Source of the DNA: a virus
Strand: one strand, 5' to 3'
IMG/VR virus record: IMGVR_UViG_3300020165_000039
Coordinates: 1-43,767 of that record
Length of the DNA stretch: 43,767 nt
Shown: in pieces, positions 3,542 through 42,574 of the stretch
Numbering within the stretch: the stretch's first letter is position 1
Layout: each line of letters opens with the position of its first letter
Notes under the pieces: generated by a model
What the model was told of the DNA's origin: nothing
Databases searched by the model: none
Seen by the model: only the letters and a program-made list of their open reading frames with translations
Position numbers and translations under genes: made by a program

Positions 3542-3832
3542 TTAATTCTTAAATCTAAATTCGACTGTTAGATTTTCGACTTCATTATTATAATCCCTCA
3601 ACACGGAATTTCCAAGATCTAAAACTTTTTTTCTGTAGTTTGAGAAGTGATCTTCATCAAAATAATCAGACATTTCAATTAAAGAGTGGTATTCTTTAGG
3701 TATGTTGTCATACAGCTTTGTGAAATTAACCTCATGATGGGACTGTAAATCCTCCATCATGTTTAAAAACGATTTGAACAAAAAACGAATATAATAATCC
3801 GACCTGTCATTTAAAAAATCCTGAGCTTCCAT
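3542..3832 (-). CDS. Small acidic tail-region protein
   Basis: 96 residues, mostly helical, rich in Asp, Asn, Phe and Tyr. It is the first gene of the minus-strand operon leading to the tape measure gene. A TGTGTAA motif lies 19 nt upstream, the minus-strand arm of a divergent palindrome at 3851-3871. Function unknown. Its position suits a tail completion or chaperone-related protein, but I recognise no family. Confidence 0.6.
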   Translation of the reverse strand: MEAQDFLNDRSDYYIRFLFKSFLNMMEDLQSHHEVNFTKLYDNIPKEYHSLIEMSDYFDEDHFSNYRKKVLDLGNSVLRDYNNEVENLTVEFRFKN

Positions 3833-3850
3833 ACCTTAATCCTAATATTC

Positions 3851-3871
3851 TTTACACAAAAATTGTGTAAA
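3851..3871. promoter_or_regulatory. Divergent palindromic late promoter region
   Basis: TTTACACAA and TTGTGTAAA form a 9-bp inverted repeat around AAA. Each arm holds TGTGTAA, one per strand. The plus-strand arm (3864-3870) ends 8 nt before the ATG at 3879. The minus-strand arm (3852-3858) ends 19 nt before the ATG at 3832. The region separates two divergent virion operons. The promoter role is inferred from recurrence of the motif. Confidence 0.55.
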
Positions 3872-3878
3872 AGTAGAT

Positions 3879-4358
3879 ATGGCCATATCTTTAATTTCTC
3901 AGTCCCAAAAAAACACGATTAAATTAATCATCGACGACATTCACGAAACGTTTGCTAGAAATATAACAGTTTACCAAGATGGTGTGAAAACTTTAATAGC
4001 ATCAAGCCAGGAATATAACGGCATATATGGTAGAACTTACTCTGGGGAACCCAGCACATCAACAAGCTCGGTCGCTAATATAATTAAAGCTAGAATAAAA
4101 TATATAAATGCTAACGAAAGCTCACTAACTGACGGTAAAATTAAAAGTCAACTTGATATAGATCTAATTGATGGATCAGTTAGAATCACCGTAGATGCGG
4201 CTGGCTTTAATATTTTAAAAGAAGCAAAGAGGTGCGAATTTGAGGGTGGAAAATATGAGATAACAACGAAAGGTAACCCAACTGGCATATTTGGACCACA
4301 ATATTATCATTTTTATTTAAAACCAATAGAGGGTCTAGAAGACGCGCCTATAACATAA
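3879..4358 (+). CDS. Putative head-tail connector protein
   Basis: 159 residues, mixed alpha/beta, no enzymatic motif. It is the first gene of a plus-strand island inside the otherwise minus-strand virion region. It overlaps the next start (TAATG at 4356-4360), which indicates coupling. Connector or neck proteins of siphoviruses are of this size and lie between capsid and tail tube genes, as here. The start is fixed by TGTGTAA 8 nt upstream. No family recognised; the role is positional. Confidence 0.5.
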   Translation: MAISLISQSQKNTIKLIIDDIHETFARNITVYQDGVKTLIASSQEYNGIYGRTYSGEPSTSTSSVANIIKARIKYINANESSLTDGKIKSQLDIDLIDGSVRITVDAAGFNILKEAKRCEFEGGKYEITTKGNPTGIFGPQYYHFYLKPIEGLEDAPIT

Positions 4359-8651: not shown

Positions 8652-9743
8652 TTAAACAGTCACACCAACAAGTGCGCGGTTGTCAAGAACAACACGACCT
8701 TCTTCAAGACCACCGAAGTAACCGATCTTGTTTTGGCGGATGCTGTACTGATCATCAGCGATGAGGCTGAACTCTCCACCGTTTTCGCTGTCAACAGCTA
8801 CAGGGCGGATAAGAGCCTCACGGCTACGGTCGATACCAACAACGATTTGATCCGAAGCAGGAGTGAAACCACCACCAGCGGCTGCGCCGTAGATAGTATT
8901 GAACTTCTGTCCATCACCGAACTCATTAAGCTCAATAACATTGATGCCATAGAACTCAGGAGCGCCAGCAGCACGGTATGCTTCTTCAGCAATAACGTCT
9001 GCAGTTTGAACGTTAGAGTTAGCACCAGCACCAGGAGCAGCTTTAGTGTTGATTGGATTGTAAGCAATTGCACGAAGCTCTTCAACGATTTCAGGAGAAA
9101 CGATGATGTCAGTCATGCCACGGCCTTGACGAGCGTCAGGAGTACCACCAACAAAGGAAGTAACAATTCTCTTCGAGCGAGTCGAAAGAGCATTGAGGTC
9201 AGCCAAGGTGAAACGATCTGCTGTTTGAGCTGCGATAACGTGAGAAAGACCATTTGTGCTTGCTTCAGCAAGAGCTTTCATGATAACGTTAGCGGAGATT
9301 GTGTTTTGCTTGAGAAGAATCTCTTGAGCAACGCGAGTCATTGTCTTAGCGACAACGTCCATGCGGCTCTTAGCAGCATAACGGCGATCAAAGCTTACTG
9401 CGGAATCAAGGCTATAAGTAGCGATCTTGAGTTCAGCAGATGTTGGGAGAACTTCCGAAGTAGGAAGGCCACCAGCACGGCTTTGGCTATATACTTGAAC
9501 ATAATCTTCGTCAGAAATATCGAAATACAGATCCAATGGAATCGAAGGATTGTCATCAGCATTATACTGAAGAGTGGTGAAGAGGTTAGACAATGCTGGA
9601 GCATTGTTGATAACTTCTGCGAGAACAGGGCCAATGAATTCGGCAAGAGCAGTTTGTGCTTCATAGGCTACATCGCGATTGCGAGAAGCCATTGCTTTTA
9701 CGAGTTCGACTTGTTCGGGAGTGTTTTTTAAAGTAATTTTCAT
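8652..9743 (-). CDS. Probable major capsid protein
   Basis: 363 residues with composition typical of an HK97-fold capsid protein: an N-terminal helical region (EQVELVKAMASRNRDVAYEA), then beta-rich segments and an acidic, Ala/Gly-rich body. Base composition is clearly more GC-rich than flanking genes, with uniform favoured codons, marking one of the most highly expressed genes. It follows the protease-scaffold and decoration genes and is closed by a strong terminator, the standard capsid cassette order. No Shine-Dalgarno is visible; the leader is A/T-rich. I infer the fold and did not verify it. Confidence 0.85.
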   Translation of the reverse strand: MKITLKNTPEQVELVKAMASRNRDVAYEAQTALAEFIGPVLAEVINNAPALSNLFTTLQYNADDNPSIPLDLYFDISDEDYVQVYSQSRAGGLPTSEVLPTSAELKIATYSLDSAVSFDRRYAAKSRMDVVAKTMTRVAQEILLKQNTISANVIMKALAEASTNGLSHVIAAQTADRFTLADLNALSTRSKRIVTSFVGGTPDARQGRGMTDIIVSPEIVEELRAIAYNPINTKAAPGAGANSNVQTADVIAEEAYRAAGAPEFYGINVIELNEFGDGQKFNTIYGAAAGGGFTPASDQIVVGIDRSREALIRPVAVDSENGGEFSLIADDQYSIRQNKIGYFGGLEEGRVVLDNRALVGVTV

Positions 9744-9764
9744 ATTGTTAAATTCTTTTTTTTA

Positions 9765-10385
9765 TTAACCCAGCTTGACGACTACATAGTCACCAGCGAA
9801 TTGATCAGTAAGACCGCCTTGTGAGGCGCGAGAGCCAGTTCCAAGAATGGTGCCGAGAGAACCAGCAGCACCCGCAGTAGCAGGACCGACGGTGCCATCA
9901 CCAGCAACTTCGAAGCCGCCACCAATAGTGAAAACAGATGCTGCTCCACCTTCGATAGCATTTGCAGAAAGAGTGAAAATACCCTTAGTTGCAACTGGAA
10001 CACTTTGCCCAGGAAGAACAGCTTGAAGCTCCTCTTTCTTGGTTGTGTTATAAATGAGTTTTTCTCCATTTTCGTCAGCCTTAGCGGTTTGATTCAGAGT
10101 GAGTCCCAGAGGGAATTCACCAGAAGCAGCTGGGCTGATTTCAAGAGGATTAGTTGGGTACATGTCGCCGCCAACGAAAGGATAATCTGTCTTACCAAGA
10201 TAAGAATCACTACCATAAGTGATGGTATCTTGGTCGAGATTTCCGTCTGTTACTTTAACAAAAACGCCATTGGAACCTGCGCCATCACCAGTGGTGGACT
10301 CAAGTGCCGAAGCGGAGTTAAGAGCAAACATATTTACTACGTCATGCTCGTTATATTGTCTGAATGGGAGTAATCTTAATGCCAT
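9765..10385 (-). CDS. Probable capsid decoration / head-stabilising protein
   Basis: 206 residues. It begins MALRLLPFRQYNEHDVVNMF and is Gly/Ala/Thr-rich and beta-rich, with codon use as biased as the capsid gene. It lies 21 nt upstream of the capsid gene. Small decoration proteins encoded next to the capsid gene have this composition and the same need for stoichiometric expression. The motif NEHDVVN is seen in head decoration or fibre proteins of other phages as I recall, but this is not verified. Confidence 0.6.
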   Translation of the reverse strand: MALRLLPFRQYNEHDVVNMFALNSASALESTTGDGAGSNGVFVKVTDGNLDQDTITYGSDSYLGKTDYPFVGGDMYPTNPLEISPAASGEFPLGLTLNQTAKADENGEKLIYNTTKKEELQAVLPGQSVPVATKGIFTLSANAIEGGAASVFTIGGGFEVAGDGTVGPATAGAAGSLGTILGTGSRASQGGLTDQFAGDYVVVKLG

Positions 10386-10408
10386 AATTTTTTTAGTTTA
10401 AATATTTT

Positions 10409-11974
10409 TTATCCAAGGATGTTGTCGCGGCTAAACGCAGCAGCGAACTTTTCCTTTAAAGTTGTTTTTGAAGCTTGAGCTTCGTTATTGTTAGGAAGAA
10501 CAGTGTCAGTAGCTTCTGCATTTTCAAGAGCTTGCTCAACATCAACTTCTTCAGCAACCACCTCTTCAGTGATTTCAGAAGCTTCTACTGTAGTAAGACG
10601 CTTTTCAATTTCTGCTTCAACACGAGCTTTGATTTCATCTTCGATCTTCGCTTTAGCTTCTTTATTTTTAGAAGCCCAAAAAACAGCGAGTTCATCTTTG
10701 AAAGATGCGAAAGATTCTTCTGCATCATCAAGACCTTTAATCTTCTCAGCGATAAAAGCGCTATCGCTTTCTTCGAGATCATAAATAGAATCGATTTCTT
10801 CCATACGTGTATTGAAACGAGCGATAGCTTCTTCAGCTCTCTTCTCGGATTCAAAATCGCCAATGCGCTCTTGAGCTACCTTAAGTTCCTCTTTGATAGA
10901 TTCTACAGAATTTTGAAGCTCTTCTCTCGCAGCAGCGATTTCAGCCTTCTCTTTTTCCGCAGCCTCAAGGGAAGCTTGGTACTCGTCATCTTTTTGTTTA
11001 ATGGCTTCGGCAAAAGTCGAAGTCATGCCAGCGACTGCTTCTTCAGAAAATTTCTTTTCTGCGAGAGAGTCCTTTAATTCTGATAAGAGTGTTTCTAAGT
11101 CCATGATTTTAGTATTGTTTACAGTATTTTTTAAATTTTGTGAAATTTTGTCAGATATTTTTTGCAAATGCTTGGCCTGTCTTTGATTGGAGTTGGACAT
11201 AGACTCTTCTTTTTCGCTTTCCTCGTCCTCTTCCATATTATTGTCTTTTTCATATTCGTTGCTAATAAGACCTTTTACATTTGCGGCTGGCTTCATAGTA
11301 AAACCAATACCAAGTGGATACACATTACCAGTAATCAAGCGATAAACTGGGCGACCATCTTCAGTCATTCCTTTACCACCGAAACTTCTTAGCATGCCCT
11401 TCATTTCGCTTACCTTTTCTGGATCGGAAATTATTTCGGCGTCCTTTAAATTCTTACTACCGATAGCAATGCTGTATTCACTAAACCCAATTTCCCAACT
11501 TGCAGAAATTGTATTGTACATGCTGTTTTTCGGGTTAGTGCTATTTTCAAGCATATCAAAAAACTCTCTATCAACGGTTTTGTAAACGACTGCTCCAAGA
11601 GCAATATTAAATGGGTCTTTTTCATTTTCGTCTACATTAATTAAAACAGTGCTATCTGAATAATCACTGAATCCAGCATTAACAATATGCCCCACAACTT
11701 TCTTCTTGTTGTGTTCTATATTGGTTGGCTTATGAATGAATTGTTGTACAGATTCGATTGCGGTTTTGGTGTCGATGCCGTCTCCATTTTTATTAAACTC
11801 GTTTACAACAGCAGCATTAAACGCCACACCCATTAAGTCTATATTTTTTTCTAAATCTACAGAAGTGGGTATTAAAGATCTTAAATTTTCAATATTAGCT
11901 TTGCTTACATTGATGCCAGCTATATTTTCGCAGGCTTTAATCTCAAATTCGAAAGTTGTGGTATACTTATGCAT
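10409..11974 (-). CDS. Probable prohead protease-scaffold fusion protein
   Basis: 521 residues in two parts. Residues 1-240 form a globular domain with a His-containing segment (HKPTNIEHNKKKVVGHIVNA near residues 93-112) like that of phage prohead proteases. Residues 250-470 are long charged coiled coils rich in Glu, Lys and Ala, as in scaffolding proteins. The order portal, this gene, decoration, capsid matches protease-scaffold fusions. The start overlaps the stop of the 106-residue gene (GGATGCATAA), so translation is coupled. I cannot place a complete catalytic set with certainty. Confidence 0.6.
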   Translation of the reverse strand: MHKYTTTFEFEIKACENIAGINVSKANIENLRSLIPTSVDLEKNIDLMGVAFNAAVVNEFNKNGDGIDTKTAIESVQQFIHKPTNIEHNKKKVVGHIVNAGFSDYSDSTVLINVDENEKDPFNIALGAVVYKTVDREFFDMLENSTNPKNSMYNTISASWEIGFSEYSIAIGSKNLKDAEIISDPEKVSEMKGMLRSFGGKGMTEDGRPVYRLITGNVYPLGIGFTMKPAANVKGLISNEYEKDNNMEEDEESEKEESMSNSNQRQAKHLQKISDKISQNLKNTVNNTKIMDLETLLSELKDSLAEKKFSEEAVAGMTSTFAEAIKQKDDEYQASLEAAEKEKAEIAAAREELQNSVESIKEELKVAQERIGDFESEKRAEEAIARFNTRMEEIDSIYDLEESDSAFIAEKIKGLDDAEESFASFKDELAVFWASKNKEAKAKIEDEIKARVEAEIEKRLTTVEASEITEEVVAEEVDVEQALENAEATDTVLPNNNEAQASKTTLKEKFAAAFSRDNILG

Positions 11975-12287
11975 CCTTTTTCATTTTTTCAAGAATTGCT
12001 TTTTGTAAAGCTGCGGGGAGTTGCTTTTGTTTTTCTGTTAATCCACCCTCACCGACCTCATTCATCATAGCTCTCATTTTGTCGTACTGCGTTGAGCAGG
12101 CTGCGTAGGTTTCTTTGTCTCCCATTTCTGCTGTATCAATCAGAGCTTTATCATCCATAGCGCAAACACTCATGTATGATTTGTACATAGCTTCTTCTTT
12201 TTCGCTATATTTTTTAGCAATCGAGATTTCTATATCTCCGTTAGAGCGTTTTATATCCGCTACGAGTGGGGTTTTGATTTTTTTCAT
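11967..12287 (-). CDS. Small head-morphogenesis protein, unknown
   Basis: 106 residues, Lys/Met-rich and helical (MDDKALIDTAEMGDKETYAA near residues 45-64), with no known motif. It is tightly coupled: its ATG overlaps the portal stop (ATGA at 12284-12287), and its stop overlaps the next start. The placement between portal and protease-scaffold suggests a minor scaffold or head-assembly role. Confidence 0.55.
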   Translation of the reverse strand: MKKIKTPLVADIKRSNGDIEISIAKKYSEKEEAMYKSYMSVCAMDDKALIDTAEMGDKETYAACSTQYDKMRAMMNEVGEGGLTEKQKQLPAALQKAILEKMKKDA

Positions 12288-14236
12288 TTTGAATGGTGTA
12301 AAATTGCTGAAGGGTAAATCTCTAATCTGTGTGCTTCTGAAATACTAAGAACACCTTCCAGCGAACCTAGTTTTTCGATTTCACTAAAATCGTTTACACA
12401 AGAAGTAACGATTTCTGTCCAACTTTCTTTTTCTGACGCACAGATAACGGATTCACATAATTGGCTTATCATTTTTTCTTGGTTTTCGTTGAGAGACTCT
12501 ATGTTTAGTTTTTCTAGCATTTTTTCTTTAGCTATAGAATTCAATGCCTCTATTTCGTAAATAGTGCCTTGAATACTTTCTCTAGAAAATTGATCCTTAG
12601 AACCTTCTGGGCGACCAGACATACCTTTTGTTGGTTTGTCGGTTTTTTCTGGTTCTTCTTCGCCAGTTTCTGGGTCAATCATAGGAACTCCGCCAACTAT
12701 TGGGTTGAAATAACCTTTCTCTCTTTGTTCTACAAATTTTTCTTGAGCTTTTTCTAGGTTTTCTGCCAAAGGAAATTTTCCAGTTTGAAAAAGTTCCATT
12801 CCTTGCTCTGCGGTAATAAGACCAAGCTCCATAAGTCTTGTAGCGACTCTCATCAATTGAGTTTCGTCGCGTAAATCAATATCTTTAAACTTAACAGTCG
12901 GGTAGGATCTAAAACCTAAGTCTAAAGCAATTCTGCGAATTTCTGGCTGCAAAAAGTCTTGGATAAACGCCTCGCGAGCTTCCTTAAGTCTATCCAAAAA
13001 TACGCGAGTTTTCATTTCAGCGCCATTATACTTATCATCATTCAGTGCTATATTCTGTAGACCGTCTTTGATGTCTTGGTTAATAACTTCATACTTACCA
13101 GGGCCGACTACTTTATTGATATCTGGAATAACAAAATCTGCTTTTGTTGTGTAGTCGGAAACTAGAACACGGCCAACAGATTCGTTTTGGAAAAGGGTTT
13201 GCATAGCTTTTACATTGTTGGGATTAATACCTCCTTTGTCTGGCTCCGCTCCCATTGTGATCATAAGAATTACGTTCTCAACTGTCCTCATGATAGCTTG
13301 GTCCATCTTCTTCATTTCCATCTTCGCATTAATGTCTTCAAGAACTGGGTAACCGAACGGGATAGCGAATGGCTCGTAATCTTGTTTTTTATAAAAACTA
13401 TACGACATTTTTTCGTTTTTTAAATTTATTTGAAGTCCGTCTTTAAAATAAGCACCGTCCTTGATTTGTTTTTTAACTTCTGGGTCCAAGGCGTCAAACA
13501 CAGCCTTATCATAATCGTTTTTAGGACTAGCTAATCTTTCTATGTCGAACTCAGAAAGTATTTTTGCGTAACCTCCATCTTTTGTGTTAAATACAGTGCT
13601 ACGTTTAGCTACTATTTCAAAAGGATTTAAAACAACATATTTCAATGGAAACTTATTCAAAGAAGGTCCATCCGAAACCGTTTGGGAAAACTTTTTATAA
13701 TCTTCTATACTGAATTTGCCGTCTACTCTGTATAGGAAAATATTTCCACTTCTATAATACTCTCTAAAGTACTGATCTTTAAGATCCCAAATTTTAATCC
13801 TATCAAGAAGCTTTTCGAAAAATTTTCTAGAAGTTGAATTGCCGCCCTCTAAATAAAGTTCTGAATTAGCAAACTCTGACATCATGTCTATAGTATTTCT
13901 AAAAATAGGCACATTAGCGTAAGCCTTTTGGCAAAGTTCGATAGCGTCTCTTACATTGACCCCATCAGAAGCCATTTCATAAGGCAACATTCCAGCTCTA
14001 ATTTGACTAAACTTGTTAATAGGGGCCGTAACAGAAGATCTATTTATTCTTGTGCTTGTGGAAGACGATGAGAGGTTACTCACAGAACCAGATCGACTGT
14101 ACGACCCCTGGGAAACATGATATGCCGCGCCCGCTGTCATAGGTTCGACAACTTCTTGAGGTTTTTGAGCTTCTGGGGCAACCCTTTTAAAATTATTCCA
14201 ATACTCGGACTTTTTTGTGTATTTTCTTTTAGGCAT
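12284..14236 (-). CDS. Probable portal protein
   Basis: 650 residues, the size of large portal proteins. The N-terminal 90 residues are Ser/Thr-rich and low complexity (GSVSNLSSSSTSTRINRSS). Residues 95-130 (VRDAIELCQKAYANVPIFRN then TIDMMSEFANSELYLEG) resemble the start of the portal body, which often contains a 'region of N' pattern like this. The C-terminal half includes long helices (LRDETQLMRVATRLMELGLI near residue 457) expected for the stem and crown. It is directly downstream of the large terminase gene. The ring-shaped portal is the DNA entry channel and terminase dock. Confidence 0.78.
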   Translation of the reverse strand: MPKRKYTKKSEYWNNFKRVAPEAQKPQEVVEPMTAGAAYHVSQGSYSRSGSVSNLSSSSTSTRINRSSVTAPINKFSQIRAGMLPYEMASDGVNVRDAIELCQKAYANVPIFRNTIDMMSEFANSELYLEGGNSTSRKFFEKLLDRIKIWDLKDQYFREYYRSGNIFLYRVDGKFSIEDYKKFSQTVSDGPSLNKFPLKYVVLNPFEIVAKRSTVFNTKDGGYAKILSEFDIERLASPKNDYDKAVFDALDPEVKKQIKDGAYFKDGLQINLKNEKMSYSFYKKQDYEPFAIPFGYPVLEDINAKMEMKKMDQAIMRTVENVILMITMGAEPDKGGINPNNVKAMQTLFQNESVGRVLVSDYTTKADFVIPDINKVVGPGKYEVINQDIKDGLQNIALNDDKYNGAEMKTRVFLDRLKEAREAFIQDFLQPEIRRIALDLGFRSYPTVKFKDIDLRDETQLMRVATRLMELGLITAEQGMELFQTGKFPLAENLEKAQEKFVEQREKGYFNPIVGGVPMIDPETGEEEPEKTDKPTKGMSGRPEGSKDQFSRESIQGTIYEIEALNSIAKEKMLEKLNIESLNENQEKMISQLCESVICASEKESWTEIVTSCVNDFSEIEKLGSLEGVLSISEAHRLEIYPSAILHHSK

Positions 14237-17052: not shown

Positions 17053-18088
17053 CTTCAATACCAATCCCCAGCACTCTCGCCTTCCAAGCAGACATCCCCT
17101 CTAGACGCTGGGCTTCCTTTTTTATTACTTGTTTTTGCATTTCCGCTATCTTGACCATATTTTTTCTTTCCTCTTCTTCTTGAAATAATTGGACAATAGA
17201 TAAAAATGATGCTGTGTCCTTTTGTTGGTTCGCTAAACGCGTACCACGGTCACCCTGCAGCTTCTTTGTTAGATTTTCTATACGGGTCTCGCATTGATGG
17301 TATTCAGAGCTTTTGGCTTTGATAATTTCCGCTAAACGGACGGTCATTTCATCTTGGTGACCAGCATCCTCAAACATCTCGTTTAATTTTTGCAAATGGC
17401 CAGTAATTAACTCTAAGTTAATAATTTCCTTGCCCACATTCATATATAAATTAAGTTCGTCAGCAGTTAGGTCTGGCTTGTCCCAAGTAAGTCGTATAAA
17501 TTCTTGCTCGAATAACTCTTTGTCTCTGGGGCTGATATAATTATTAACAATAGCGACAAATCTAGAGTTACTAAGATTTATCCGCAGTTTATCGCAACAA
17601 GTGCGCGCTGTCCTAGATAGCTTTCCCTCTTCCAGTCCGACACCAGTTGAGTCATTAATCTTTTTAATTAATCTGGAGATGGCTTGCGGCGCGATATAGT
17701 TTCCAGAAGAATCTTGTCCTTTTTCCTTTTCCTCTTCTCTTTCTTGGTTAACCAGCTCGTTAATAACACGCCACTCTTTAGATAGTCTCTTGGTTGTTCT
17801 ATTGAATATTATATCAGCTATTTCGGACGTATTCATGCCGTCCATCTTGAGTTCTTCTATTTCAGATAATTGTTCTTCCGTAAGATTTATTTCTTCCGCC
17901 TTATTGTGCTTTGTCGTTTTTGCTTTGTAACCGTTTTTTGCTAGAAACTTTGTGACCATACGGCCTTCTTTGGATCGCCCATCGAGCTTATCATCTTCAA
18001 ATACAATTCTCGTGATATTGATGATATTGGGATCAGACCTAAAACTTTTTAATATTAAATCTTTTTGCTCCTCGGATAAATTTATCAT
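17042..18088 (-). CDS. Putative terminase small subunit / DNA-binding protein
   Basis: 348 residues, highly charged. Residues 70-110 (LTEEQLSEIEELKMDGMNTS then EIADIIFNRTTK) look like a helix-turn-helix. Residues 195-320 are helical with coiled-coil character (EIIKAKSSEYHQCETRIENL). The position two genes upstream of TerL in the same operon, the HTH and the helical oligomerisation-like region fit a small terminase. Length is above average for the family. It overlaps the sigma factor stop (ATGA at 18085-18088) and the ERCC4 start. A different DNA-binding role is possible. Confidence 0.5.
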   Translation of the reverse strand: MINLSEEQKDLILKSFRSDPNIINITRIVFEDDKLDGRSKEGRMVTKFLAKNGYKAKTTKHNKAEEINLTEEQLSEIEELKMDGMNTSEIADIIFNRTTKRLSKEWRVINELVNQEREEEKEKGQDSSGNYIAPQAISRLIKKINDSTGVGLEEGKLSRTARTCCDKLRINLSNSRFVAIVNNYISPRDKELFEQEFIRLTWDKPDLTADELNLYMNVGKEIINLELITGHLQKLNEMFEDAGHQDEMTVRLAEIIKAKSSEYHQCETRIENLTKKLQGDRGTRLANQQKDTASFLSIVQLFQEEEERKNMVKIAEMQKQVIKKEAQRLEGMSAWKARVLGIGIEDVL

Positions 18089-18756
18089 AATATATCCCTT
18101 TCTTCTAAAATTTGCTTAGCCTTAACGTGAAATATTTTTTTAAGATTTTTGATCTGCTTGTAGCCAGCCGATCTTTTTTTCTCGTTTGTTTTAAAACCCA
18201 AATACTTAGCTACCTCTTCATCACTTTTGTTTTCAACAAACAACATTTTAAAAGCCCCAAAAAGTCTATCATTCAAATGGGGTCTCATAGCGTTGGTTAG
18301 ATTTTTTGTAGCCTGCTCTAAATCTACAAAGTTGTCTTGCTTAGATTTCAGTTCATAAGAATGGTTTTCCATTGTAACAGCGAGCTTAATATCGTAGGCT
18401 GACTTTTTCTTTAATTCCCATTGTCTGTATTCTGCACAACTGCCTTCCTGAATACCACTTTTTGTTTTTGAGCATCCATCACCACCGTTGTTAAATTTAC
18501 ATCTTAAGCATGGGCGCACGAAATTTCCATAATGATTTCGCAATAAGTTTTTGAATTGATTAGATACAACTCTGTTTAACCAAGGTTCTACGGATTTAGA
18601 CTGGTCCCACAAATGCCATTTTTTATATATGTGGGTCATAATGATTTGTTTTATATCATCATAATCTATCGAAGCTACAGCATCTAAATCCCACTTTGAT
18701 CTTTTTCTTTCTAATGCAGTTTCTACCTCTTTTATTTTATCTTCAAAAGAATGCAT
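18085..18756 (-). CDS. Phage RNA polymerase sigma factor (sigma70-like, putative late sigma)
   Basis: 223 residues. Residues 30-76 resemble sigma region 2 (IDYDDIKQIIMTHIYKKWHL then WLNRVVSNQFKNLLRNHYG), including the Trp/Asn/Arg-rich helix that binds the -10 element. Residues 164-210 resemble a region 4 helix-turn-helix (FKMLFVENKSDEEVAKYLGF then KKRSAGYKQIKNLKKIF). Between them is an insertion with Cys83, Cys86, Cys95 and Cys107 that could bind zinc. By analogy with T4 gp55 it would redirect host polymerase to late genes. It is coupled to the zinc ribbon gene (TAATG overlap). It may read the AGTGTAA motif found before virion operons. Confidence 0.75.
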   Translation of the reverse strand: MHSFEDKIKEVETALERKRSKWDLDAVASIDYDDIKQIIMTHIYKKWHLWDQSKSVEPWLNRVVSNQFKNLLRNHYGNFVRPCLRCKFNNGGDGCSKTKSGIQEGSCAEYRQWELKKKSAYDIKLAVTMENHSYELKSKQDNFVDLEQATKNLTNAMRPHLNDRLFGAFKMLFVENKSDEEVAKYLGFKTNEKKRSAGYKQIKNLKKIFHVKAKQILEERDIL

Positions 18757-19098: not shown

Positions 19099-19794
19099 TT
19101 AAAATTTATTTTTTTCGAGCTTAGAAACTATGAATTTTAATATTTCACTTCTTTTGATATCCTCTACACCAAATCTTGTGCAGTGAATTCCTTTGTCTTT
19201 GGATTCTTGATCATCAAAAGCATCAAAGATATTAGAAAAACCACTATTACGAATATCGCTTTGCATCATATCGCCGCAAATAATAATTTTGGAATCTTCT
19301 CCAATTCTAGTGAGCACTGTCATTAATTCGCTGCGAGAAAAATTTTGAGCTTCATCAATAATAACAACTGCATCATTCCAATTAGACCCTCTAACAAAAT
19401 TTACTGGAATGCAATTTAACAGATTCTTTTCTTTCAAAATCTTTACATCTGATGAATGCATCATTTCCTCCAGCTTATCATAAAATGGGCCAGCAAATAC
19501 CGAAAACTTATCATCAATAGAGCCAGGAAGAGAGCCAAGGCTCTTTTCAGAACTTTCGGCTATGCTTCTGATATACAGGATATCCTTTTCGAGGTCGGCA
19601 TCCATTAATACCTGCAAGGCTGAATATACGGCCATGTAGGTCTTTGCAGTGCCAGCTGGTCCAGCTAGAAACATTAACTTAGTTTCTTCGCTTAACGCTG
19701 TTTTTAAAAAATCAACTTGATTTTGGGTAAATTTAAATTTACGTTCCTTGAATCTTATCTTATGACTCAGTTGTTTGAATTCTAAATTAGGCAT
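19099..19794 (-). CDS. phoH: PhoH-like ATPase
   Basis: 231 residues. Walker A GPAGTAKT (residues 45-52), Walker B VVIIDEAQNF (Asp147, Glu148) and a sensor-like segment KIIICGDMMQSD are all in place, diagnostic of the PhoH family. PhoH proteins are P-loop ATPases related to superfamily 1 helicases and are common in marine and freshwater phages; their phage role is unsettled, with RNA metabolism suspected. The start follows an AGTGTAA motif by 10 nt, so it is probably a separate transcription unit. Confidence 0.92.
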   Translation of the reverse strand: MPNLEFKQLSHKIRFKERKFKFTQNQVDFLKTALSEETKLMFLAGPAGTAKTYMAVYSALQVLMDADLEKDILYIRSIAESSEKSLGSLPGSIDDKFSVFAGPFYDKLEEMMHSSDVKILKEKNLLNCIPVNFVRGSNWNDAVVIIDEAQNFSRSELMTVLTRIGEDSKIIICGDMMQSDIRNSGFSNIFDAFDDQESKDKGIHCTRFGVEDIKRSEILKFIVSKLEKNKF

Positions 19795-19814: not shown

Positions 19815-20666
19815 TTATTTAAGTAATTCTGTAATAGTTAAAGATCCTCTAGCTAAATCCCCACCAGCAATAGAAATATTCTCTGCCGTAATTCTGCCAT
19901 TAATAGGAGTGGAAAACAATGTTGTAGTAGAAGAATTTTTTATATCTATAGTTATATTTCCAGGATTTGATCCAGTTAACGGCACTAAGGCTTGAATATT
20001 ATCGCCTTGAATTTGTACATTTTGTTCTGCGGTTATTAACTCGACAACGCCTGGGTTATATCCACCAATTTCATAAACTGGAAAACGGTTTGCGTTAAAT
20101 TGGTATTGAATAGACTCAAACACAGAAAGATCACTCAATGGGGTTCCTCCAAAAGAAGAATAAGCTCCGTGACCATAGTTAGCAAAATTCAAATCATCAA
20201 TGACTCCAGCAGTTGTCTCGCCTGCAATTTTTCCACCCGCATTTTCTATTGTCAAAGGGTTGTAAATAGCGAAGTCGCACTGAACCAGAACTGGGGCGTA
20301 AGGAGAGAGGGTGTAGGAAAAAGAAGTCAAAAAAGCACCGCTCCCAGATATACCATCAGTATCGTCGCCAAGCCTAAATGTGGCTCCTAAGTCGCCCACA
20401 TCCCCAGTAAAATCAGTTGGATCGAACTCTGCGTTACTCACATAACAAGAAAAAGAAAGGGAAGAATTTGGTGGCCCAGCAAGATTAAAATTATCTCTTG
20501 TCGGGGTTTTCCCTAAAAGCCTAACTGGAGAAATGTTTGGGGTGTAGTTCAGTTGCACCTGCTGGCAAAATACCCCTAGGTTTCCTCCGTCAGCTGTTGT
20601 CGGTAAAGTATTACTATTTGGTTGCCCAAAATACAACGGTACGTCCTTATATGATATATATGCCAT
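19815..20666 (-). CDS. Tail-tube-like structural protein (paralog)
   Basis: 283 residues, beta-rich, Asn/Ser/Gly-rich. The pattern of alternating strands (GPPNSSLSFSCYVSNAEF then GAFLTSFSYTLSPYAPVLVQ) and the C-terminal AENISIAGGDLARGSLTITE resemble the neighbouring 265-residue protein and the probable tube protein at 5862-6989. It may be a tail tube variant, a tail-tip ring protein or a tube-fold adaptor. Similarity is judged by eye and is moderate. It has its own AGTGTAA motif 8 nt before the ATG. Confidence 0.55.
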   Translation of the reverse strand: MAYISYKDVPLYFGQPNSNTLPTTADGGNLGVFCQQVQLNYTPNISPVRLLGKTPTRDNFNLAGPPNSSLSFSCYVSNAEFDPTDFTGDVGDLGATFRLGDDTDGISGSGAFLTSFSYTLSPYAPVLVQCDFAIYNPLTIENAGGKIAGETTAGVIDDLNFANYGHGAYSSFGGTPLSDLSVFESIQYQFNANRFPVYEIGGYNPGVVELITAEQNVQIQGDNIQALVPLTGSNPGNITIDIKNSSTTTLFSTPINGRITAENISIAGGDLARGSLTITELLK

Positions 20667-20674
20667 AAGTATTA

Positions 20675-20681
20675 TTACACT
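20675..20681 (-). promoter_or_regulatory. Putative late promoter motif AGTGTAA
   Basis: AGTGTAA on the minus strand, ending 8 nt before the ATG at 20666. It overlaps the last codons of the upstream gene. Confidence 0.5.
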
Positions 20682-21472
20682 TTTTTATAGCCTTTATACG
20701 TTAATTCGGCAATAATGGTGTCGCTGACTCCAGCGCTCATACTCTCGCTCGCCAAACAACCGTTCTCTAGGGAAAATGTATTTAATACACCGCTGTCTCC
20801 GCTTATTTTTAATTCGATTGTTCTGTTTCTATCTTTTGAACCACTCAGAAATGAAAATGTTTCTTCTGGCTCATAGTTTTGAACTTCTATGGTTATTTGA
20901 ACTTCTTGAGTAATTGGGCCTATTATAGAAAGATGCGCTGGTGTTTCTTGTCCTAACCCATAAATAGGTTGAACGTCAAATGTTTCAGAAAAATTAAACG
21001 ACTGCACAGCGTTGGGTCCGCCTTTGTCAAATGTAACAATCAACCCCGATTCGGGTACGTTTTGAATATTATCCTCATTTAACGAAGACGATCTAATTGG
21101 GGCGCTGCTACCGCTCAGGCTGCCGTAAATAGATAAATCAAAGGAAATTTGAGGCAATTGTCCCACCGAAGATGAAACGGCATAACTATTTAAAACTGCT
21201 TGAGAAAAATCAACAAGATTGTCTCCATATTCGAATTGACCCGAAATATCGGTTAATCCTGTTAATTGTGTAACAAAATCACTGTTCAAAAGAAATTTAT
21301 CAATCGAAGCTGTAACTTGAGTTGGCCCATCTAATGTTTTACCCGCAAAATCATTGCCGAGCATAGAAACAGCAGATTCGCTCACGTTTTGTTGGAATGA
21401 AACATTTTGGACCCCCTGCAATAAAGTTCCGTTAATTATTATATGTTCTTCGTGAGATCCTTCTAGCGCCAT
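20675..21472 (-). CDS. Tail-tube-like structural protein (paralog)
   Basis: 265 residues with composition and motif order like a tail tube monomer: an N-terminal strand pair (HEEHIIINGTLLQGVQNVSF), a middle segment (YAVSSSVGQLPQISFDLSIY), and a C-terminal half repeating the pattern. That middle segment matches DYSLEASVGGIPTVSVSFEG of the protein at 5862-6989. Preceded by AGTGTAA 8 nt before the ATG. Probably a tail structural protein. Confidence 0.58.
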   Translation of the reverse strand: MALEGSHEEHIIINGTLLQGVQNVSFQQNVSESAVSMLGNDFAGKTLDGPTQVTASIDKFLLNSDFVTQLTGLTDISGQFEYGDNLVDFSQAVLNSYAVSSSVGQLPQISFDLSIYGSLSGSSAPIRSSSLNEDNIQNVPESGLIVTFDKGGPNAVQSFNFSETFDVQPIYGLGQETPAHLSIIGPITQEVQITIEVQNYEPEETFSFLSGSKDRNRTIELKISGDSGVLNTFSLENGCLASESMSAGVSDTIIAELTYKGYKKV

Positions 21473-21480
21473 AAATTACT

Positions 21481-21487
21481 TTACACT
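21481..21487 (-). promoter_or_regulatory. Putative late promoter motif AGTGTAA
   Basis: AGTGTAA on the minus strand, ending 8 nt before the ATG at 21472. Confidence 0.5.
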
Positions 21488-21521: not shown

Positions 21522-21623
21522 AGTGTAACACATATCGCCCCATCGCTTAATCGCGTGGATGCTAATTATACGGTCGTTCAAAACTTTGCCCCGAATTTCT
21601 TAAAGGATTTTCGGGGCTTTTTT
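21522..21623 (+). ncRNA. Candidate phage small RNA (late motif plus terminator)
   Basis: The plus strand has AGTGTAA at 21522-21528. About 60 nt later a terminator follows with no gene between: stem GCCCCGAA / TTCGGGGC at 21588-21617, then six T. If the motif initiates as at virion genes, the transcript would run from about 21536 to 21623, roughly 88 nt. It contains only a 14-codon reading frame (ATG at 21560). It lies between two minus-strand tail genes, so no coding reason for a plus-strand terminator is visible. Alternatively the hairpin is a weak bidirectional terminator for the minus-strand gene ending at 21622. Confidence 0.4.
21588..21623 (+). terminator. Rho-independent terminator, plus-strand orientation
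   Basis: An 8-bp GC-rich stem with a 14-nt loop, followed by six T on the plus strand. On the minus strand the tail after the stem is AAAGTTTTG, so termination there would be weaker. Confidence 0.7.
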
Positions 21624-22353
21624 ATTCTGGGTAAGTGTAGAAATCAGGCTGAGATAGTGTGAGTACGTCGGTCCAGTATTCTGGTTCAGCAGAAAATGTC
21701 ACATTTAAACCATCTATGGAGACGGTCCAATCCCCAAAGCCGAGTAATTCGCCACTTATATAAAAAGGTATTCCAGCAAAGTCGGTGGTATATTCAACAG
21801 CGGCGTCGTAATCGGGATCAGGATCAAGTGATGGATCATTGCCGAATGATCTTAAATACATGCTTGGAATAAAAGGAGTATCGGCTTCGAAGCCAATCGA
21901 ACCTTTAATCCCGTACCCAACAAAATTTGCTTCATCGGTTGTAACGCCATTATACATTTTTACAATCTCTATTTCCGCATGTGTTCGGTTAATCTCAGCG
22001 GCTCCTTGAGCTGCGCTCCATTTTGTAATCCTGTCTTTTGGCTGACCTAGATCAATAGGAGTTAATTCAATATACGGCGGGTCTACTGGGTCATCTATAT
22101 TTAAAATGATCGTGGCACTGCCCGCATTATATGAGCCAGTAACCCCATTGAAATTCCAGTGCAGCTTTACGGCATTAGTTAACGACAATGCAATTTCCGA
22201 ATCAGTTGGCGAGCTGCCTTTCTTGGTCCCTCCGAGTGTAGTCCAATAGTCGTAAGGCCTACCTTCGTCGCTTATAGTTAAGTCTACTTTTTCTAAGCAA
22301 TACGGAAATCCGTTACCTACCCCTAATGTTTTAAATTTTTCTGCTTCTGGCAT
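21622..22353 (-). CDS. Tail-region protein, unknown
   Basis: 243 residues, acidic, Asp/Pro/Tyr-rich and probably all-beta (LGQPKDRITKWSAAQGAAEI near residue 102). No catalytic motif recognised. It is at the end of the tail-fibre region and has its own AGTGTAA motif 8 nt upstream, so it can be transcribed separately from the fibre operon. Possibly a fibre-associated or baseplate protein. Confidence 0.5.
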   Translation of the reverse strand: MPEAEKFKTLGVGNGFPYCLEKVDLTISDEGRPYDYWTTLGGTKKGSSPTDSEIALSLTNAVKLHWNFNGVTGSYNAGSATIILNIDDPVDPPYIELTPIDLGQPKDRITKWSAAQGAAEINRTHAEIEIVKMYNGVTTDEANFVGYGIKGSIGFEADTPFIPSMYLRSFGNDPSLDPDPDYDAAVEYTTDFAGIPFYISGELLGFGDWTVSIDGLNVTFSAEPEYWTDVLTLSQPDFYTYPE

Positions 22354-31436: not shown

Positions 31437-32039
31437 ATGTTGAAAGAACAAATACTAGAACTAAAATCAAAAGGTTTGAACCAAAAAGACATAGCGGAAA
31501 AACTTGACTGCTCGCCCTCCACAGTTTGTTGGCACTTAAACCCCGAAAAACAGCTAAAAAAATCTCGAGAAAGGAAGAAAAAGATTGCGCCGCACATTGT
31601 TAAGCTACAACGCAACATCTCTCGCTTTAATACAAACGAAACAAAAGAAAAACAAAAAAGAGAAACTAAAACGTTGACATTATCAGAGGCTTATGCCAAT
31701 GTTCGTTCAAGGCTAAAAGATTATGCCAAAAAACATAAATCAGATACAGAAAGGGCTAAAGTGGTAAACATAAAAATAGTAGCGGAAAAATATAACATCA
31801 CAGAACATAATACTAAGATTATTTGCAGATACACGGGCAAACTGCTCGACTGGACTAGACCAGAAGAATTTCAAATTGATCATATTATTCCCCGCTCCAG
31901 GGGTGGAGACAATACAATCGAAAATTTACAAATCATTTCTAAAAAAGCAAATCAAGCAAAAGGCGACATGACTCATGATGAATTCATGGTATTTATGAAG
32001 CAATGCTTAAATTATTGCTCCGATAGCTCAGCTGGATAG
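31437..32039 (+). CDS. HNH endonuclease with N-terminal helix-turn-helix
   Basis: 200 residues. Residues 8-35 form an HTH (SKGLNQKDIAEKLDCSPSTV), with a Lys-rich linker after it. The HNH domain is at about 128-185: CRYTGKLLDW, then FQIDHIIPRSRGGDNTIENL and a C-terminal MTHDEF. Asp148-His149 and Asn163 are the expected catalytic and metal residues. The layout is typical of homing-type nucleases inserted near tRNA genes. The last 8 codons run into the downstream tRNA-Arg gene, with the stop in the D-arm, suggesting insertion next to the tRNA. Confidence 0.88.
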   Translation: MLKEQILELKSKGLNQKDIAEKLDCSPSTVCWHLNPEKQLKKSRERKKKIAPHIVKLQRNISRFNTNETKEKQKRETKTLTLSEAYANVRSRLKDYAKKHKSDTERAKVVNIKIVAEKYNITEHNTKIICRYTGKLLDWTRPEEFQIDHIIPRSRGGDNTIENLQIISKKANQAKGDMTHDEFMVFMKQCLNYCSDSSAG

Positions 32040-32093
32040 AGCATCGGTTTTCTAAACCGAGGGCCGCAGGTTCGAGTCCTGCTCGGAGTACCA
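32017..32093 (+). tRNA. tRNA-Arg (TCT)
   Basis: Acceptor GCTCCGA / TCGGAGT (one wobble pair), D-arm GCTCAGCTGGATAGAGC, anticodon loop TTTCTAA with TCT, T-arm GCAGGTTCGAGTCCTGC, encoded CCA. Its 5' 23 nt overlap the 3' end of the HNH gene. Confidence 0.95.
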
Positions 32094-32110
32094 CTTTAAA
32101 CTTTACAACA

Positions 32111-32185
32111 GGACCCTTAGCTCAGAGGAAGAGCAAACCACTCATAATGGTTAGGTCGAGATATCGTAATTCTCAGGGTCCACCA
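32111..32185 (+). tRNA. tRNA with CAT anticodon (Met or Ile2)
   Basis: Acceptor GGACCCT / AGGGTCC, D-arm GCTCAGAGGAAGAGC, anticodon loop CTCATAA with CAT, encoded CCA. The T-arm is weak (GAGAT with TTCTC, one mismatch, loop ATCGTAA). It is not an initiator by its acceptor, which starts with a full pair. Whether C34 is converted to lysidine (Ile, AUA codons) cannot be read from the sequence. Confidence 0.85.
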
Positions 32186-33924: not shown

Positions 33925-33931
33925 ACACACT

Positions 33932-34087
33932 ATGGAAATCACAAAAGAAATTAAAGTCTCATCAATCCTAACCGACGAAGTCTTGCGTCAAAAAGATGAG
34001 CTAATTGCTCAAGGCTTTAAACACGCCAACAATATCCGCGTTCGCGGTCGCGATGGTTACACGATGCTTTTCTTAAAAAAAGTTTAA
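33932..34087 (+). CDS. Small protein, paralog of the gene at 35581
   Basis: 51 residues. It shares most of its sequence (SSILTDEVLRQKDEL-AQGF, KHANNIR, YTMLF-KKV) with the protein at 35581-35736. The pattern of a helix then an arginine-rich strand (NNIRVRGRDGYTMLF) suggests a compact alpha/beta fold. Function unknown. It is followed in both places by a paralogous second gene, so the pair was duplicated as a block. Confidence 0.78.
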   Translation: MEITKEIKVSSILTDEVLRQKDELIAQGFKHANNIRVRGRDGYTMLFLKKV

Positions 34088-35555: not shown

Positions 35556-35580
35556 TCTCTAAACATTAAAATTACACACT

Positions 35581-35736
35581 ATGGAAATACAAAAAACAAT
35601 CAAAGTCTCATCAATTCTCACGGACGAAGTCTTGCGTCAAAAAGATGAGTTACTCGCTCAAGGCTTTAAGCACGCGAACAACATCCGCACTCGCGGGTCT
35701 GATCGTTACACGATGCTTTTCTTTAAAAAGGTTTAA
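35581..35736 (+). CDS. Small protein, paralog of the gene at 33932
   Basis: 51 residues, near-identical to the protein at 33932-34087 with changes mostly at the ends and a short loop (TRGSDR instead of VRGRDG). It opens the duplicated two-gene block. Function unknown. Confidence 0.78.
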   Translation: MEIQKTIKVSSILTDEVLRQKDELLAQGFKHANNIRTRGSDRYTMLFFKKV

Positions 35737-41829: not shown

Positions 41830-41857
41830 TTGACTTAGGGTTGTGATAGAACATACT
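41830..41857 (+). promoter_or_regulatory. Early-type promoter, short leader
   Basis: TTGACT, 16-nt spacer, CATACT, 9 nt to the ATG at 41867. Confidence 0.85.
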
Positions 41858-41866
41858 GTAACACCT

Positions 41867-42574
41867 ATGAGTAAACTACTAAATAGCGGAAACGCAAAAA
41901 CCATCAAAGGCGAAAAACTTGGCTGGATCACTTTTGGTCTTCACCTTGCGCCTTTTAATCTAAGCGGAAAAAATGTTTGCGCCCATGCCTCGGCTGGATG
42001 TGCGGCGGCTTGTCTCAACACCGCTGGACGCGGCGCAATGGGTAATGTTCAAAGCGCACGAATTGCAAAGACGCAAAAATTCTTTGCTGATCGAACTGCT
42101 TTTACTTGGCAACTAGCTAAAGAGATTGGCAACGCAATAAAGCTTGCGGGCAAGAAAGGGATGAAACCTTGCTTCCGTCTCAACTTAACAAGTGACTTGC
42201 CTTGGGAAAATATCAAAGTGGAATCACACGGAAAAAAGCTTTCGCTTCTAGAGATGTATCCCGATGTGCAATTCTACGACTACACCAAAAGCTTTCCTCG
42301 GATGGTCGCTTACCTAAAAGGCGAAATGCCTAGCAACTACCACTTGACGTTTTCACGCAGCGAATGCAACGACGTGAAAGTTTCAATGATCGCTGAAATG
42401 GGTGGTAACATTGCCGCAGTGTTTCGCAATGAGTTTCCGAAATCTTGGCTTGATCTTGACGTTGTCAACGGCGACGAAACAGACTTACGCTTTTTAGATG
42501 GTAAAAACAAAATCGTTGGCTTACTGCAAAAAGGACTTGCCAAGAAGGACGAAACGGGTTTTGTTATAGGCTAA
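41867..42574 (+). CDS. Gp88-like phage protein
   Basis: 235 residues from the ATG at 41867; an in-frame ATG at 41843 lies upstream of the -10 box and cannot be used by this promoter. The pattern GWITFGLHLAPFNLSGKNVC, AHASAGCAAACLNTAGRG, TFSRSECND, and a C-terminal DLRFLD-KNKIVGLLQKG is that of the Gp88 family. Four Cys in the first 50 residues may bind metal. Function unknown; common in phages from aquatic environments. Confidence 0.82.
   Translation: MSKLLNSGNAKTIKGEKLGWITFGLHLAPFNLSGKNVCAHASAGCAAACLNTAGRGAMGNVQSARIAKTQKFFADRTAFTWQLAKEIGNAIKLAGKKGMKPCFRLNLTSDLPWENIKVESHGKKLSLLEMYPDVQFYDYTKSFPRMVAYLKGEMPSNYHLTFSRSECNDVKVSMIAEMGGNIAAVFRNEFPKSWLDLDVVNGDETDLRFLDGKNKIVGLLQKGLAKKDETGFVIG

Follow-up and report, generated by a model that had tools for sequence, protein, structure and literature searches.

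One copy of the heptamer AGTGTAA in a viral DNA stretch of 43,767 nucleotides (the window, analysed here as a whole) precedes no gene and is followed, on the same strand, by a short segment that closes with a hairpin and a run of T. Does this gap hold an RNA gene of its own and, if so, what would its product do? An earlier note had proposed a late small RNA of 88 nt, with packaging, antisense regulation and host targeting as possible functions. The case examined here is comparative and draws on motif placement, conserved structure, the lack of a conserved open reading frame (ORF) and the autonomy of the unit. On these grounds the segment is very probably a real RNA gene belonging to a previously unlisted family, and the best explanation as a whole, on balance a probable one, would be a stand-alone phage non-coding RNA gene that is expressed late and acts in trans. 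The features discussed are collected in Table 1.

Table 1 Features of the putative RNA unit and its surroundings (positions in the window unless a contig is named).
Feature	Position	Strand	Details
Proposed non-coding RNA, about 90 nt	21534-21623	+	5' end placed by analogy with T4 late promoters
AGTGTAA, proposed -10-like promoter element of the RNA	21522-21528	+	GTGTAA kept in 28/28 copies
Hairpin 1	21540-21558	+	CCAU 21540-21543 / GUGG 21555-21558, bulge C 21544, GC/GC
Hexaloop of hairpin 1, UUAAUC (YUNR)	21547-21552	+
Linker, largely unpaired, carrying the ACGGUCGU block	21559-21587	+	From alignment and fold
Intrinsic terminator	21588-21623	+	Hairpin 21588-21617, then T6 21618-21623; from fold and stem covariation
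Back-to-back AGTGTAA of the operon headed by gene 20675-21472	21481-21487	-
First gene of the divergent operon, tail region, 265 aa	20675-21472	-	No PHROG family matched
Neighbouring gene, stop codon touching the terminator end	21622-22353	-	Not a conserved neighbour of the RNA
ECF-like sigma factor, 223 aa, candidate AGTGTAA reader	18085-18756	-
AGTGTAA sites 8-10 nt before an ATG	4947, 7898, 19805, 20675, 21481, 22362, 30486, 1805
Second small unit	L018: 12290-12440; L021: near 7747; L045: near 793; L060: near 1311; G001: near 81530	L021 -; L045 +; L060 -

The window contains nine copies of AGTGTAA where 6.1 are expected, a count that is not significant alone. Eight of them lie 8-10 nt upstream of an ATG that opens an ORF of at least 30 codons, a placement for which permuted hexamers, serving as the control, average 6%, and in a related record of 112.8 kb (G001) 17 of 30 copies precede an ATG, every one at 8-10 nt. 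The ninth copy in the window is the only one without a gene and heads the gene-less unit; because the motif stands without a gene there, it is more readily identified as a promoter. Both this copy and its minus-strand counterpart lie where the earlier note had placed them. At the motif sites of 91 genes the upstream DNA is merely A/T-rich and no -35 element is visible, so that late-type genes are preceded by a single -10-like motif, as in T4-type late promoter systems. Conservation, covariation and the presence of a sigma factor gene lend good support to the proposal that a phage promoter motif drives a stand-alone RNA unit. The lateness of that promoter is presumed from the genes that share AGTGTAA. 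If the motif is a -10 element, the mRNAs at the eight gene-bearing sites would have leaders of only about 2-4 nt, and late genes of this group would be expressed as nearly leaderless mRNAs, starting 2-4 nt before the ATG, under a phage ECF-like sigma factor. Elsewhere in the window, divergent genes at 3825-3880 share an inverted TTACACAAAAATTGTGTAA sequence that forms another back-to-back motif pair, and two similar blocks (33928-34062 and 35577-35711, minus strand) with GTGTAA copies in a near-identical context appear to be a duplication.

A candidate reader of the motif is encoded at 18085-18756. This protein matches sigma-70 region 2 in Pfam (24.1 bits, cut-off 24) and, between residues 29 and 191, resembles the model of the ECF superfamily (E = 2.6e-8, below the curated cut-off). 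Structure prediction reached modest confidence (pLDDT 68, pTM 0.35), and ECF and other sigma factors predominate among the Foldseek matches of the predicted structure (best E = 0.045); taken singly, the predicted structure and these fold matches are weak. The protein is conserved in 19 aligned relatives. Assignment to the gp55 family found no support: Pfam, PHROGs and NCBIfam gave no gp55 match, and the matches obtained are to ECF and sigma-70 models and to ECF structures. Recognition of AGTGTAA by a phage sigma factor is reasonably probable, the link between the two being correlative. The late promoters of T4, which span -13 to -6 (PMC1524935), likewise combine a short -10-like motif, no visible -35, late-type genes and a phage sigma factor (gp55). 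Unlike in T4, AGTGTAA takes the place of TATAAATA, and the candidate sigma factor is ECF-like with a region-4-like part.

By the same analogy, transcription would start near 21534 and yield an RNA of about 90 nt instead of the 88 nt proposed earlier. The folding energy of the segment is -26.8 kcal/mol (z = -2.68), a value equalled by none of 200 shuffles. The plus-strand terminator hairpin with its T6 is present as first described, with stem arms GCCCCGAA (21588-21595) and TTCGGGGC (21610-21617); a simple consensus terminator scan did not list the site 21588-21623, presumably because of its narrow loop-size rule. It had also been considered that the hairpin might serve only to terminate the minus-strand gene; the T-run is on the plus strand only, and the hairpin is therefore not a minus-strand terminator. 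The accompanying statement that all genes here lie on the minus strand holds for about 7.2-30.7 kb. No ORF of at least 50 aa occurs on the plus strand at 21522-21623 and none is common to the relatives, one of which (L105) has no ORF of at least 8 codons in the unit, which bears out the view that no plausible gene follows the motif.

The unit recurs in related viruses. Fourteen loci in viral contigs were reached through gene 20675-21472, and 13 of them carry the unit upstream of the homologue on the opposite strand (in L014 it is cut by the contig end); the remaining locus, L013, has the homologue without the unit. Pattern scans and a sigma-factor scan extended the unit, defined by GTGTAA, a hairpin with a YUNR hexaloop, a linker and a terminator, to about 40 IMG/VR contigs, a figure that includes some near-identical contigs. 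From these, 28 distinct copies were aligned, and every aligned copy has the motif and the hairpin-T6 terminator. The patterns by which some members were found prescribe GTGTAA and the greater part of the loop; members found via the sigma gene (L134, L142, L143, L152, L193, L196 and L197) still keep GTGTAA and the loop type. A covariance model trained without the window scores the window copy at 62.3 bits (E = 3.7e-10). The longer records bearing the unit hold one convincing copy apiece; a weak second model match in L016 (5747-5860) is terminator-like sequence beyond the tail gene and was rejected as a second copy, and L192 has merely a weak match at the corresponding place.

Other relatives, including some whose terminase is 84-87% identical, lack the unit at this site. 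In L013, L170, L172, L174-L178, L183, L187, L188, L190 and L198 other sequence is found there, often a co-directional gene, which on this comparison marks the unit as an accessory of part of the phage group. The libraries covered were Rfam 15, INPHARED phages, IMG/VR and one GTDB genome scan. No Rfam 15 family matched the window or ten relatives at gathering or relaxed thresholds, BLAST of the RNA against isolated phages in INPHARED gave only partial Listeria phage matches at the terminator end (query positions 71-108), and the tail gene 20675-21472 had no match in isolated phages as DNA or protein. The collections searched contain no cultured member of the group, and the RNA is not described in the open-access papers searched by title and abstract. 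The lone match in the GTDB pattern scan, L112, is identical in sequence to the viral L109 and lacks the hairpins, and 14-mer matches fall in tRNA genes (L027, L034 and others); both were taken as chance.

Fitted to the covariance model, the 28 distinct sequences have 92.7% of cells paired, with two-sided changes in 12 of 20 pairs. Covariation is 0.377, compared with 0.141 (sd 0.013) after shuffling; none of 500 shuffles reached it, and slid controls gave at most 0.09. A separate hand alignment of hairpin 1, from which bulge letters were omitted and in which bulge length was picked to favour pairing, gave 0.398 versus 0.154. The inner six pairs of this hairpin form in 120 of 120 cases on the plus strand and in 93 of 120 on the minus strand, with 36 G-U cells against 3 A-C, 20 of the G-U cells coming from the invariant U-G closing pair; the pairing suits a plus-strand RNA. 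The stems of hairpin 1 change, but its loop and bulge are strongly conserved in their letters: the hexaloop reads UNR in 28 of 28 copies and YUNR in 27, with a free fifth position. The conservation of hairpin and loop in relatives that the earlier note had named as a check is thus found, together with covarying stems. Identity in the core is 0.64, compared with 0.39 at four-fold sites of the nearby sigma gene, and exceeds the four-fold value in 117 of 120 pairs, which are not independent of one another. These comparisons point to what is likely a new family, yet one of a known kind, the phage sRNA. Since the folded shape persists in about 40 contigs whose neighbouring genes differ, the unit almost certainly serves some purpose in infection.

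The position of the unit is constant relative to an operon that itself varies. At all 28 loci the motif of the unit stands back-to-back with the promoter motif of a late-type operon, 24-63 nt away (36 nt in the window). The first gene of this operon has 23-76% identity to that of the window across loci and in L107 is a homologue of the PhoH-like gene 19099-19794; RNA identity does not track first-gene identity (r = 0.14). Beyond the terminator the genomes differ: in some an opposing gene ends there, and others have a gene with a GTGTAA of its own, a reversed homologue of 19815-20666, tRNA genes after TTGACA-like sequences, or other ORFs. With first genes and downstream neighbours so varied, the unit is, as judged from the compared genomes, autonomous of its neighbours. 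The antisense function suggested earlier is not supported in cis: the RNA is divergent from the tail mRNA, the strand opposite it holds nothing conserved, gene 21622-22353 is touched only at its stop codon, and the differing neighbours beyond the terminator therefore make cis-antisense control unlikely.

Several observations concern the neighbouring genes themselves. The predicted structure of the 20675-21472 protein is too poor to use (pLDDT 35). In the otherwise related phages L010, L011, L012, L015 and L110, the product of the homologous first gene has long insertions in its N-terminal part that differ from phage to phage, which points to domain swapping. Near the RNA, some genomes have a second small unit consisting of GTGTAA, a conserved ORF of about 21 codons (M[IL]IKTTE[MT]NNRPQSSIGAFVV) and a terminator hairpin, which possibly encodes a late micro-protein.

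Could the segment be something other than an RNA gene? It might act as a transcription insulator, the conserved hairpin and terminator serving only to stop a useless transcript that the divergent promoter cannot help producing. Promoters that are back-to-back at all loci and a terminator in every copy would fit this reading; it is improbable, as termination needs neither hairpin 1 nor its loop, yet both are conserved and covary, and conservation of the core exceeds that of four-fold sites. The fixed 8-10 nt between most motif copies and an ATG would equally suit a translation-start signal, the plus-strand copy then marking a very small gene. Here, however, no start codon lies at that distance, there is no family-wide ORF and base changes in the unit track base pairing, which leaves this reading very improbable. 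The presence of a single copy per record, at a junction of gene exchange, might indicate an untranscribed DNA element such as an origin, a recombination site or a packaging site, but G-U pairing is strand-asymmetric and the unit combines a promoter motif with a one-sided T-run, and such an element is extremely improbable.

Among functions for an RNA product, trans base-pairing is our leading guess, held tentatively, with protein binding next. Loops of the YUNR type can adopt a U-turn, which accelerates contact between RNAs (PMC6562991), and the hexaloop thereby suggests a trans-acting pairing RNA. When duplexes with phage gene starts were sought in two genomes, the RNA did no better than shuffled RNAs, which makes a host RNA or a protein the likelier partner; host targeting, one of the functions first proposed, is compatible with the candidate RNA. 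An RNA that binds host RNA polymerase, an RNA chaperone or a nuclease as a decoy or inhibitor, and does not pair, would agree with pairing targets in the phage no better than chance and with loop and bulge letters that are kept though stems vary; this is rather unlikely, given a loop that suits RNA-RNA contact and the lack of a match to known protein-binding families in Rfam. A structural or packaging RNA, carried in the virion or required for it, is suggested by the motif shared with structural-type genes and by the location of the unit at the head of a late-type operon. Against it, and against the phi29-type packaging RNA proposed earlier, stand a terminase of the ordinary large-subunit family, the absence of an Rfam match such as phage packaging RNA, and close relatives by terminase that do without the unit at this site, and we regard it as quite improbable.

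In the model that we favour, the trans-acting phage RNA, host RNA polymerase, probably with the ECF-like sigma factor of the phage, would start just 3' of AGTGTAA, acting as a -10-like element without a visible -35, and produce an RNA of about 90 nt ended by the intrinsic terminator. This RNA would fold into a short bulged hairpin with a U-turn-type YUNR hexaloop, a linker and a terminator hairpin, and would most likely act in trans late in infection, using its loop and linker to pair with a second RNA, probably one of the host. Transcription, sigma specificity, timing and trans action of the putative RNA are the steps that we infer. A more specific version is put forward with some doubt: a new family of phage RNA, made with the structural genes under a phage ECF sigma factor in a group that has no cultured member, would use its U-turn hairpin late in infection to capture an RNA or protein of the host, or would be taken into the virion. 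In this version it would be an accessory takeover RNA that keeps its one genomic site while adjoining tail genes swap.

Phage-encoded sRNAs, including VpdS, PreS, OOP and IpeX (reviewed in PMC12197685), are short non-coding RNAs, some with their own promoter and intrinsic terminator and several acting in trans on host or phage mRNAs. The present candidate differs in having no sequence or Rfam relation to them, in its late-type gene motif and in coming from a group without isolates, and both its transcript and its target are putative. Antisense RNAs with YUNR loops (hok/Sok and pIP501 RNAIII; PMC6562991) have the same YUNR-fitting hairpin loop, but the candidate has no overlapping sense gene and no complementary partner was found in the phage. 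The phi29 pRNA is likewise a small structured phage RNA near structural genes; the candidate is shorter, matches no Rfam family and accompanies an ordinary large-subunit terminase. The functions of only a few phage sRNAs are known; the candidate has comparative support typical of real RNA genes and offers a defined structure and loop as a test object.

Proteins with PEP-CTERM-like C-terminal tails are encoded beside the phage tail gene in L013 and L183 (747-1415, a match below curated family cut-offs) and were recognized by eye in L172 and L198. Those of L013 and L183 hint that the host is Gram-negative and has a sorting system for proteins of this kind; the tails are possibly a host clue or surface mimicry. 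In L192 the terminase gene (9186-13904) is apparently in three separated pieces, which suggests inserted elements such as introns or inteins. The window itself encodes a protein matching Pfam GP88 (41843-42574), as well as HNH and T5orf172 nuclease-type genes among four tRNA genes (31437-32185).
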